A stretch of DNA of 64,000 nt from positions 1-64,000 of the forward strand of contig NZ_CAMPHV010000018.1 in the NCBI RefSeq assembly GCF_946886105.1, read 5' to 3'. Below, piece after piece: positions 29,205-41,609 of this stretch. Within the stretch, counting starts at the first letter, position 1; every line of letters starts with the position of its first letter. Source of the stretch: an uncultured Pseudomonas sp. Lineage in GTDB: Bacteria; Pseudomonadota; Gammaproteobacteria; Pseudomonadales; Pseudomonadaceae. The position numbers were made by a program, and so were the translations under genes. The notes beneath the pieces were generated by a model. That model was not told where the DNA came from, ran no database searches, and saw only the letters and a list, made by a program, of their open reading frames with translations.

Positions 29205-29490
29205 GTGGCCCGGATGTAATCCGGGGAGTGGTTTAGCGAAGGCCGTCGGCCCGGCTTCATCCAGGCTATGAGAGCAGGCAATACCCGCGACGAAACAGCA
29301 AGTTCTGCAACGGAACAAGGCCGATAACAAGGCTGATCGATCGTAATCGATTGAACGCTTGGCCCCCGCTGCGCGAACTACAGAATGGCCAGGGCCAAGC
29401 GCCCACAACAGGCCGGATATACGAATGTAACTGCGCTGACGACAGACGCAAAAGCAAAGCTTTACTCACTGCTTGTGAGGAGAGTCCATA
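29205..29490. other. Left boundary region of the integron
   Basis: About 290 bp without a convincing gene. A REP hairpin (GCCCGGATGTAATCCGGGGAG ... CATCCAGGCTATGAG, 29208-29272) is followed by about 200 bp of unknown sequence, then the remnant of an attC (TAACAACTG read leftwards, 29486-29497). The far side of that attC is missing. Confidence 0.55.
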
Positions 29491-29505
29491 TACAGTTGTT
29501 AGAGG

Positions 29506-29736
29506 TTACTCCTGTGCGGAGAAGTGCTTTTTAGCCAGCTCTTTAGCTAGCTGAAAACCTTCCTCTGTTAAATAAACGGACTCTGATTTGCCTTTTGGGT
29601 CGCTGATATAGCCTTTTTCAAATAGCTCATCCATAACGCTGAATTCAATCCGCTTCCAGACCCTGCCGTTCTCAAACTCAAACACTCCAAGCAGTGCTAG
29701 AACAACTTCCGAAATTTTCTGATCGTCGTATTTCAT
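29506..29736 (-). CDS. Integron cassette gene 17: DUF6429-like protein
   Basis: 76 residues from ATG 29736 with TTGAGG upstream. M-K-Y-D-D-Q-K-I-S-E-V-V-L-A-L-L-G-V-F-E then a winged-helix-like C-terminal half (F-E-K-G-Y-I-S-D-P, S-V-Y-L-T-E-E-G). It resembles the small DUF6429 family that is frequent in integron cassettes. Last visible cassette; an IS1182-type element separates it from the next attC. A frame that starts further right at 29811 begins inside the IS and is rejected. Confidence 0.65.
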   Translation of the reverse strand: MKYDDQKISEVVLALLGVFEFENGRVWKRIEFSVMDELFEKGYISDPKGKSESVYLTEEGFQLAKELAKKHFSAQE

Positions 29737-29772
29737 GGTTGTTGGCCTCAATGTCTGTGAGTAGCCTCTAGC

Positions 29773-31545
29773 GAAGCTGTAGAAAAACCCCAAAAACACT
29801 CTCCTCCTCAACCCTTACAGCACTTTTTTGAAGAATCAGGGCGGGTATCGGGACATGGTTGTTTTGGGGATGTTGAAGTTGCTCTGGCCAACCTATAGCG
29901 CATATCAGCGCTCTGGAGGGCATCAAGGGTGTTTTGTATGGCGCGGTAGTCATAGCCAAGCTCCGCGATTTGCCAGTTTTTCAATGTTGTGGGTGATGCA
30001 GTAGAGCTTCCATTGACCATCCACCCGTTGCCGTCCGCGCAGGCTGAAACGATCCAGGCGCTTGTTATGGCGCAGGTTGCCGAACACCGGCTCCACGGTG
30101 GCGAAGCGACGGGTGATCATCGCACGCCCGACCTCGCTGTCGATGCGTCGGCGCATGCGGGTCAGGGCATTGTCCTGCTCGGCCTTGGGCAGCAAGAATG
30201 CCACTTGGCGTGTGGCGGTTTTCTCCGGCGTACGCAGGCACTGCTTGCGCTGCAGACAGCTCAGGCAGTCGCGCAGGGCACCCTTGAACTTGATCGCCGG
30301 CTGGCCCTTGATCAGGCAGTGACTGCCGTTGCCGTACAGGGTTTTGCCGGCCGGGCAGGTGCAGGTTCTATGCACTGGATCGAAGCAGAAGTCGGCCGGG
30401 GTATAACAGCTGCCGCTTACAGGCTTGGTGCGTTTGTCCCACAGCGGGTCAGGCTTCTCGGTGTGGTGTTTCTGCCCGGCATAACGCTCGTCGCGCTTGC
30501 GGTAGCCGTTATCGGGAATGAAGGCGGTGATGCCGCGAGCCTCCAAGTGTTCCACTGCCTTACGGCTGTGGTAACCGGCATCAGCTGTCAAGCAGGTGCT
30601 GGCGCTGCGCAGTGGGCTTGTCGCTTCGATGACCGGCCCGAGCAGCGCCTGTTCTGAACCGGTGCCGTGGGCCTGGGCTTCGACGATGATCTGCGCCTTC
30701 TCGTCCACGGCGGCGACGTCGGTATAACCCTGGATCACGCCCTTGCCGGTGGCCATCTTGGCCGACTCGTTGTCGGTGCGGTTGGACAGATTGATCCGGC
30801 CCTTGGCGCCCTTGCGATCCTCGGGGTTGTCCTGGAGCCAGGCGCGCAACTGGCGGGCATCGGCCTGCAGCCGTTCTAGCTTGCGGGCCGCTCGCGCCTC
30901 GTCGTCCTCGGGCTGCTTATCACTCTGGCGTTGCCGTTCGATCATGGCTTGGGCGGCCTTTTCCATCTTCTCGGTCTGGCGCAGGAAGTCGGCGCGGGTG
31001 CCGCTTCTGGCCTTGCTGGCATTGCTCGGCAACTTGACCCCATCGATGGCGAACATCTCGCGGCCAATCAGGCCCTGCCGGTCGCAGACCACGAGTACCT
31101 GGGCAAACAGCTTGGCGGCCAGGTCGCCCATGTTGGAGACGAACTGCGCGAGGGTGGTGAAGTGTGGCTGACTGTCGCCGGAGATGGCCATGAACAGCAC
31201 ATGGTCGCGGCAGGCTGCTTCCATCTGGCGACTGCTGATAATGCCGCGGCTGTAGGCGAGCAGGACGATTTTCAGCAGCACGGCCGGGTCGTAGGCCGGT
31301 GCGCCCTCGACGCTGTTGCGATAGCGGGCGTGGAAGTCGGCGAGATCCAGTTCGTGATCGACCAGATAGCACAGGGCGTGCTCGAAGGTGCCGGGCAGCA
31401 ACTGCTTGTCGAAGTCGATCGGTAGCAGTTTTAGTCCTTTATGAACGACTTTGAATCGAGGCATCGCCCCGCGCCTCCCTGCGATTGAATGAGGTGGAGA
31501 TTATCAGCCTGGGAATTAGGTGGCAGCAGGTTTTTCTACAGCCTC
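29773..31545 (-). mobile_element. IS1182-family insertion sequence in an attC core
   Basis: 1773 bp bounded by imperfect inverted ends GA(A/G)GCTGTAGAAAAACC at 29773 and 31545. One transposase gene fills it. The right end touches AACG of an attC, i.e. read leftwards the attC is cut right after GTT of its core; the next bases beyond the left end continue GCTAGAGGC. No clean target duplication is visible. Confidence 0.82.
29950..31464 (-). CDS. IS1182-family transposase
   Basis: 504 residues. N-terminal DUF772-type part (A-Y-D-P-A-V-L-L-K-I-V-L-L-A-Y-S-R-G), DDE catalytic region with F-A-I-D-G-V-K-L, L-T-A-D-A-G-Y-H-S, and C-terminal V-E-P-V-F-G-N-L-R-H-N-K with the terminal Glu. A Cys-rich insert (C-T-C-P-A-G-K, C-L-S-C-L-Q-R-K-Q-C) is usual in IS1182 members. 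Full length, so the element may be active. GC-rich codon use contrasts with the AT-rich cassettes around it. Confidence 0.92.
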   Translation of the reverse strand: MPRFKVVHKGLKLLPIDFDKQLLPGTFEHALCYLVDHELDLADFHARYRNSVEGAPAYDPAVLLKIVLLAYSRGIISSRQMEAACRDHVLFMAISGDSQPHFTTLAQFVSNMGDLAAKLFAQVLVVCDRQGLIGREMFAIDGVKLPSNASKARSGTRADFLRQTEKMEKAAQAMIERQRQSDKQPEDDEARAARKLERLQADARQLRAWLQDNPEDRKGAKGRINLSNRTDNESAKMATGKGVIQGYTDVAAVDEKAQIIVEAQAHGTGSEQALLGPVIEATSPLRSASTCLTADAGYHSRKAVEHLEARGITAFIPDNGYRKRDERYAGQKHHTEKPDPLWDKRTKPVSGSCYTPADFCFDPVHRTCTCPAGKTLYGNGSHCLIKGQPAIKFKGALRDCLSCLQRKQCLRTPEKTATRQVAFLLPKAEQDNALTRMRRRIDSEVGRAMITRRFATVEPVFGNLRHNKRLDRFSLRGRQRVDGQWKLYCITHNIEKLANRGAWL

Positions 31546-40289: not shown

Positions 40290-40370
40290 CAAGCTTCTAA
40301 CAGTGATTAGATGGAATTCTTCGATAATCCGATGGTAGTGGATTCTGCATAAGCACGCTCCAATGTGGAA
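40290..40370 (-). promoter_or_regulatory. attI region and cassette junction
   Basis: Read leftwards, CACTGTTAGAAGC (40304-40292) carries the same GTTAGAA core as attC 1 and marks the attI/cassette-1 boundary. The attI site must lie between here and intI. I do not see the inner attI repeats clearly, and no Pc promoter is certain. Confidence 0.5.
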
Positions 40371-40452
40371 GCTGGAAAATAAAAATCCCAATAAACCAAT
40401 CCGTTACGCCAGTTTGGCAAACGCTTACCTGTATTCGCTTGACTTCCGCATT

Positions 40453-40487
40453 TTGCTCTACCATTACTACTGTATATAAAAACAGTA
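40453..40487 (+). promoter_or_regulatory. intI promoter with LexA box
   Basis: TTGCTC (40453-40458), 16 bases, TATAAA (40475-40480). Over the -10 lies CTGTATATAAAAACAG (40470-40485), a CTG-N10-CAG LexA box within TACTG...CAGTA. SOS control of the integrase, as known for other integrons. Confidence 0.88.
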
Positions 40488-40499
40488 ACGAGGGTCGAC

Positions 40500-41609
40500 A
40501 TGGACAGTTCAACCTCCAAGCCCCGGCTGCGCGAGCAGGTTCGGGCGGTGATGCGGGTGCATCATTACAGCATTCGTACTGAGAAGTCTTACTGGTACTG
40601 GATTCGCTATTTCATTCGTTTTCACCAGTTGTGCCATCCGCTGGAGATGGGGGCGGCGGAGGTGAATGCTTTTCTCAGTTGGCTGGCGGTTGAGCGCAAG
40701 GTGGCAGCGGCTACGCAGAATCTGGCACTCAATGCGCTGGTGTTTCTCTATACCAAGGTATTGCAGCAGCCATTGGGGGAGGTCGGTGAGGTTGTGCGGG
40801 CCAAGCGTTCAGCGCGCATACCTTCGGTGCTGACCCATGCCGAGGCGACGCAGATCATTGACCTTTTAGGGCAGCCTTATCAGCTGCTGGCATCGCTGAT
40901 GTATGGCGCGGGCCTGCGGGTGGTGGAGGCAGCTCGTTTGCGTATCAAGGACGTGGATTTCGACCGGCAGGTGATTGTGGTTCACGATGGTAAGGGCGCC
41001 AAGGATCGCACCACCTTGCTCCCGGCATCGCTGATCACGCCATTGCTGGAACGCCGGCAGCGTATGTACGAGGCTTGGAAGCAGAAAGACACCTTCTATC
41101 ATGCGCCGGTCAGCCTGCCTTTTGCATTGCGGCGCAAGTATCCCGCTGCAGCCAGTTCCTTTGAATGGCAATGGCTGTTTCCTTCAAGCGCGCTCTGTAG
41201 CAGGTCGTTGAAAAACTACCTGCGTTGGCAATACTGCGTTAAAAACGGCCTCAAAATGCTCATTTACAACACGTAAACTCCGCTTTTTCGGCCGTTTTTG
41301 CCTTGTCTTGCCTGCCTCGCCTACGTTTTTCAACAGCCTGGTAGTGACGAGGACGGCACGGCGGTGCGCCATCATGTGCATGTCAGCTCCATACAGAAGG
41401 CGGTCAAGCAGGCGGTGCGGCGCTCCAGCATCCATAAGCCAGCCGGTTGCCATACCTTTCGCCATAGCTTTGCCACTGAACTGTTGCGTCGCGGCAGCGA
41501 TATTCGCACGGTGCAAACGCTACTTGGCCATGCCGATGTGCGGACGACCCAGATATATACCCATGTGCTGGGTCAGGCATTTGCCGGGGTGCTGAGTCCT
41601 CTGGGTTAG
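40500..41609 (+). pseudogene. intI: Integron integrase IntI, interrupted by a MITE
   Basis: Tyrosine recombinase. Residues 1-233 read normally: catalytic Arg140 in G-A-G-L-R-V-V-E, Lys165 in G-K-G-A-K-D-R, and the IntI-specific region L-P-F-A-L-R-R-K-Y-P-A-A-x-x-x-F-E-W-Q-W-L-F-P-S (207-229). At A-L-C-S the gene is split by a 140-bp MITE (41201-41340) with GTAG on both sides. The C-terminal part resumes S-D-E-D-G-T-A-V-R-H-H and holds C-H-T-F-R-H-S-F-A and the Tyr in Q-I-Y-T-H-V. Removing 144 bp restores a 321-residue protein. The insert keeps frame but has a TAA at 41274, so the product lacks H-x-x-R and the Tyr. Confidence 0.92.
41201..41340. mobile_element. MITE copy 3, inside intI
   Basis: 140 bp, ends CAGGTCGTTGAAAAAC / GTTTTTCAACAGCCTG, perfect 4-bp duplication GTAG (41197-41200, 41341-41344). 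About the same sequence as copy 2. Carries the stop that truncates IntI. Confidence 0.92.

Follow-up and report, generated by a model that had tools for sequence, protein, structure and literature searches.

The chromosomal integron found in a 64-kb stretch of DNA from an uncultured Pseudomonas sp. (contig NZ_CAMPHV010000018.1, positions 1 to 64,000, hereafter the window) raises the question of how a cassette array that bears the marks of recent activity came to stand beside a broken integrase gene, and of what brought an insertion sequence (IS) into the last recombination site of the same array. The integron spans positions 29490 to 41609, with the integrase gene intI at 40500 to 41609 on the forward strand and the array of attC-bounded cassettes on the opposite strand. 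We read the locus, with a high degree of confidence, as a sedentary integron whose intI was broken by a miniature inverted-repeat transposable element (MITE), whose array was recently active, and whose distal end carries a member of a group of IS1182-type elements inserted between CGTT and GTT. The IS group matters more than the break in intI and is the part worth following.

Positions 40500 to 41200 of intI (+) encode, according to the sequence, Pfam and NCBIfam, the SAM-like domain, the opening portion of the catalytic domain and what we take to be the IntI-specific patch, and the distal catalytic part follows in a separate downstream frame at 41345 to 41609 (+). Between them lies a MITE of 140 bp (41201 to 41340), with tips CAGGTCGTTGAAAAAC and GTTTTTCAACAGCCTG, which is enclosed by the two copies of a GTAG target duplication (left copy 41197 to 41200, right copy 41341 to 41344) and which brings an in-frame TAA at 41274 to 41276, closing the frame after 258 residues. 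In this product Pfam recognized the SAM-like domain together with the opening portion of the catalytic one, and the NCBIfam model TIGR02249 scored 263.5 bits, slightly below its cut-off of 265. Because the stop borne by the MITE removes the distal catalytic residues, the frame as written is predicted to give no full integrase; the integrase gene of an integron is present, as seen from the TIGR02249 score of the truncated product and from the whole gene in relatives, and a functional integrase is not, owing to the in-frame stop within the insert. Among the named relatives, the four nearest (L001, L002, L003 and L041) have 144 bp less than the window between the matches that flank the insert, and each of these loci has a single open intI frame of 340 to 365 codons from stop to stop, so that the insert-free intI is taken as ancestral and the insert as derived. 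A preliminary description of this DNA had proposed that intI is disabled by a MITE of 140 bp whose GTAG duplication is perfect, and had suggested looking in sister strains for an intact intI without it; the sequence and the Pfam frames bear out the proposal, and the shorter, open genes of the four relatives agree with it.

The insert is short and gene-free, has terminal inverted repeats and a target duplication, and belongs to a family with many copies, as is typical of a MITE. In seven of seven relatives' genomes it matched at least 24 to 49 places per genome, at least 292 in total (these counts being lower bounds), with the best match at 97%. Among 20 matches that were read together with their flanks, 18 showed CAGG tips, and an exact 4-bp duplication was present in 8 of these 18, with the form YTAR in 7 of the 8. 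Relatives of the insert also occur elsewhere in the window, at 6589 to 6786 with TTAG on both sides and, without an exact duplication, at 13385 to 13524, 41610 to 41867 and 63140 to 63202. In particular, the element at 41610 to 41867, of 258 bp and with MITE-type tips, lies directly at the intI stop codon, flanked by TTAG and TTGC; in L003, similarity to the window's flank resumes immediately past intI. No autonomous parent with the same tips was found among the loci scanned. Of 16 letters in the tip of the attC-located IS, the two MITE tips share 14 and 12 by our own count. The MITE may have been moved in trans by an IS1182- or IS5-type transposase.

A set of 75 related loci indicates how ordinary such a break is. 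Two of them lie at or near a contig end (L066 and L069, left out of the tally); by our own reading, 52 loci have an intact intI and 21 of the 73 are interrupted or truncated, a share that is not an unbiased estimate, as the loci were gathered by a pattern search and many come from metagenome bins. One of the 21 (L026, from P. mendocina FFL34) is broken by a related MITE, at 10148 to 10290, which was rejected as the same element: the interiors of the two agree at 90% across 120 nt, but the tips differ and L026 carries its MITE at another position in intI. As far as the available portions of two earlier surveys go, inactivated intI genes amount to nearly one third (Nemergut 2008, PMC2426708) and to 43 to 46% (Cambray 2011, PMC3108266) and likewise reflect a stop or loss of frame, the cause being here a MITE. 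In the portions available of the literature on MITEs and integron integrases, including PMC8618304, no description of a MITE inside intI was found. Since inactivated intI genes are common, the break alone is less remarkable than the preliminary description had rated it: it is an ordinary event, seen here with its cause visible and apparently recent.

Compared with L041, the window's intI has a ratio of nonsynonymous to synonymous substitution rates (dN/dS) of 0.037 in the upstream half and likewise of 0.037 in the downstream half, and among pairs of five intact relatives this ratio ranges from 0.032 to 0.062 upstream and from 0.041 to 0.250 downstream where defined. Because the constraint on both halves matches that of intact relatives, and because the array holds a pair of identical cassettes, described below, the break looks recent; the absence of relaxed constraint in either half, which leaves the insert as the only sign of the loss of intI, is at the same time a point that tells against a lost gene. 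Furthermore, the promoter region of intI keeps CTGTATATAAAAACAG (40470 to 40485, +), which we take to be a LexA-box-like motif, with similar motifs in five of the five relatives shown. The best-scoring protein, P0001, matches at 98% over 90% of the query, comes from a contig of 1319 bases and has no insert; its frame, read from the protein sequence only, shifts at the insertion point of the window's MITE, possibly as an excision scar, through an independent event or by a sequencing error. Another intI relative, P0003, also appears to be out of frame near this point. In the part of intI upstream of the insert, the window has a Cys (HQLC) where P0001 and P0002 have an Arg (HQLR).

The conserved promoter region with its LexA-like box, the halves of intI without decay and the insert-free P0001 would also suit a MITE that serves as a reversible switch, excised precisely in some cells, so that the population would retain an integrase inducible from an SOS-type promoter that is still intact. 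We regard such a switch as very unlikely: the frame of P0001 is shifted at the insertion point, so that the loss, if the insert was ever there, was not clean, no precise excision was seen, and a break of recent date accounts for these facts as well. The same shifted frame weakens the earlier suggestion that simple excision of the MITE would re-activate intI. It is still harder to credit that faulty assembly of repeated sequence produced the insert or the IS, a reading that we consider exceedingly improbable; the MITE family is present in high copy number in relatives and is of a type that assemblies confuse, yet the duplication around the insert is a perfect 4 bp, the best match in the genomes of the seven relatives reaches 97%, and the sequence of intI continues on both sides. 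A MITE that recently broke a formerly intact intI is the explanation that we retain.

The array comprises 14 attC sites of one family, two sites of other sequence types and, near 29500, the R''-side remnant of a truncated site; in the last of the 14, the IS interrupts the R' core. From the intI-proximal end, and all on the reverse strand, the sites lie at 39867 to 39942, 39380 to 39455, 38829 to 38904 and 38408 to 38483 (attC 1 to 4), at 36949 to 37032 and 36269 to 36330 (attC 5 and 6, the two of other sequence type, with approximate ends), at 35931 to 36006 (attC 7, ends approximate), 35485 to 35560, 34983 to 35058, 34553 to 34628 and 33921 to 33997 (attC 8 to 11), at 33418 to 33493 (attC 12, ends approximate), and at 32986 to 33061, 32600 to 32675, 32179 to 32254 and 31546 to 31617 (attC 13 to 16, attC 16 being the one cut by the IS); they are followed, beyond the IS, by a last partial cassette with the attC remnant at 29490 to 29772 (-). 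Moreover, one whole cassette is present twice, at 38410 to 38837 and at 32181 to 32608 (both -), in copies of 428 bp that show no difference and whose ends fall a few bases at most from the borders of the cassette, and because of this pair the array is best read as recently active. The preliminary description had counted about 17 cassettes, which agrees with 16 attC and one truncated remnant, and the identical pair that it had noticed, as well as the recent activity that it had deduced, find support in these data. The array would now be static unless another IntI acts on it. Some relatives have two intI loci, as is the case for NCCP-436 (L008 and L009) and for P. alcaliphila JCM 10630 (L007 and L038, the latter broken). 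The intI sequence matched 322 plasmid records; among the best 20 of the 322, two are matches to the MITE, and the others, two of which are unannotated, are class 2 integrases that match 13% of the query.

The IS at the distal end of the array occupies positions 29773 to 31545 (-), has tips of the form GAGGCTGTAGAAAAAC and encodes a transposase of 504 residues (29950 to 31464, -) with Pfam matches to DDE_Tnp_1_6, DUF772 and DDE_Tnp_1. Neither this IS nor the 258-bp element next to intI figures in the preliminary description. It lies within the R' core of the last attC, with CGTT on one side and GCTAG on the other, where GTTA is mostly found in other copies. Three close relatives (L108, L113 and L120, with 90 to 91% identity to the window's IS) occupy the same position in other, plain attC sites. 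At L113, the R' core of an attC also houses, at positions 2489 to 2656, a 168-bp element that has the tips of the IS but no room for a transposase gene. A further IS1182-type element, L110, with 27% identity and similar, CAGGCTGTG-type tips, was rejected as a member of the same target group, since GGCC stands on both of its sides.

More distant relatives, with 38 to 46% identity, are present in many genomes: matches were found in 39 of 390 genomes of the order (E 1e-60), and in 9 of 274 of a class sample (E 1e-80, one at 67%). In a genus sample, only 2 of 298 genomes matched the IS at E 1e-100. No DNA match was found on plasmids, in a search that is blind to relatives at about 40% protein identity. 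The survey of insertion sites covered 49 copies in 43 genomes, including the window copy (35 copies and a second set of 14), a partial copy seen three times (L109, L114 and L117) being left out of the counts. CGTT precedes all 44 of the left ends that were recognized with enough flank, and all 44 have the same orientation to the site; at the right ends, GTT comes next in 47 of the 48 recognized, with the end of L108 set by hand. Comparison by eye shows that CGTT and GTT around the IS correspond, in most copies, to what would be the crossover of the attC R' site. With a target that never varies, GTT may stem either from a duplication of the target or from the element itself.

Since the attC arms vary widely and only CGTT and GTT are fixed, it is possible to hypothesize that the IS group recognizes attC as a structure. 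In its fuller form, for which belief and doubt are in our view about evenly balanced, this proposal holds that a widespread IS1182-type group with a DDE transposase would recognize folded attC hairpins rather than a sequence and would insert at the R' crossover in one orientation, leaving behind a GTTGAGG core with which the upstream attC may still be functional; the group would thus be a parasite of integron arrays, and the IS and the MITE would derive from related transposases. By eye, most left flanks of the IS contain an R''-type TAAC and a hairpin. A hairpin closing on the crossover GTT was found at 14 of 30 IS sites and at 1 of 42 control CGTTA sites, taken from both strands of about 51 kb of the window outside the array, and an R'' word at 11 of the 30 and none of the 42 (the 30 sites being those of the first set without four that have a short left flank and without L130). 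Both tests undercount attC, because the window's own attC fails both. Furthermore, an intI match above the cut-off is present in 32 of the 39 IS-bearing genomes, a count that we read from the E-values among the matches listed, compared with 165 of 390 genomes overall (Fisher p 1e-7, uncorrected for kinship and genome size). Among the matches listed, an IS and an intI share a contig in 12 genomes, with 19 IS copies; six of these copies, one each in six of the 12 genomes, lie 2.9 to 12.8 kb from intI, with the IS on the reverse and intI on the forward strand, as in the window.

Several observations tell against this reading of the IS group. The transposase scores 265.4 bits against NF033551 (IS1182), slightly below the cut-off of 270, and the automatically assigned tip of L108, one of two candidates, precedes GATA, which lowers the automatic count of right ends to 46 of 48. 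A score of complementarity separates IS sites from controls weakly (median 18.5 versus 16, p 3e-4) and exceeds the 95th percentile of the controls at only 3 of 30 sites, with controls that were drawn from the same loci as the IS and may include attC. The hairpin test missed 16 of the 30 sites, the window's own plain attC among them, several sites (e.g., L139, L142, L160 and L162) are not attC-like by eye, and 7 of the 39 IS-bearing genomes are without an intI above the cut-off. Lastly, among the matches listed, 1 of the 19 same-contig copies is separated from intI by 34 kb and 12 by hundreds of kilobases or more, so that many IS copies are not beside a listed intI; these far copies may stand in attC clusters without intI. 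The sites not resembling attC, together with the 13 of 19 copies more than 13 kb from a listed intI and the fixed CGTT between variable arms, would be expected if IS1182-type elements preferred the short word CGTTA and integron arrays were merely permissive ground for it. We judge this to be unlikely, as CGTTA is short and common, yet attC-type hairpins are concentrated at the IS sites rather than at the control words, and the carriers of the IS are enriched for intI. An IS group that lands at the attC crossover remains the reading that we prefer. L160 and L162 are IS copies from a single genome, and the CGTT sites in which they stand, unlike attC in appearance, are possibly attI-like or secondary sites.

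If a DDE transposase finds sites that differ widely in sequence but have a hairpin and a crossover word in common, it would offer a case on which to test the recognition of structure, and the IS group would add another kind of mobile element on integron arrays, beside IS1111-type elements and group IIC introns. Group IIC-attC introns land on attC and so share the landing site of the window's IS, but they are retroelements, whereas the IS is a DNA transposon. Elements of the IS1111-attC group are said to have been located at attC by Tetu and Holmes in 2008 and by Post and Hall in 2009. The window copy and its relatives at 90 to 91% identity, which lie in plain attC, behave in this respect like the IS1111-attC group, whose members are insertion sequences that target the attC of gene cassettes, according to the portion available of PMC11187229. 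However, the IS1111-attC group is characterized by an IS1111/IS110-type DEDD transposase and a guide RNA, a combination that the window's IS does not share; different from that group, the IS has an IS1182-type DDE transposase and terminal inverted repeats, and is flanked by GTT at either end. No description of an attC-located IS1182-type group was found in the available portions of the literature on IS1182 with attC or integrons, including PMC9137128, PMC12444791, PMC7923331, PMC13373230 and PMC11187229; ISfinder, which was not covered, may list the group. The habit of this group of landing in attC appears not to have been described before.

As regards the host, the part of intI upstream of the insert is 90 to 91% identical in protein sequence to P. 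benzenivorans, P. xionganensis and P. borbori, and the DNA near intI is 79% identical to that of P. xionganensis. On this comparison of sequences, the host would be a Pseudomonas close to P. benzenivorans, P. borbori and P. xionganensis, and the locus is its sedentary chromosomal integron, with cassettes bounded by 16 attC and one remnant opposite the intI strand. The putative attI region is placed at 40297 to 40360 (-), where similarity to relatives starts at about 40297 and the extent is approximate. The sedentary chromosomal integrons of P. stutzeri Q and its relatives resemble the window in intI, attI and an SOS-type promoter motif, and likewise have a family of near-identical attC sites and mostly unknown cassette genes; unlike them, the integron of the window has an intI broken by a MITE.

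Family scans of the cassette genes, in which not every gene was run against every library, named no drug-resistance gene among the genes scanned. Matches were obtained for an MtlR-like protein, for an LprI-like protein and, with Pfam and PADLOC, for a KAP-family P-loop NTPase at 37037 to 38392 (-), which PADLOC lists as the candidate PDC-S20 and which also has weak matches to QatA and PifA.

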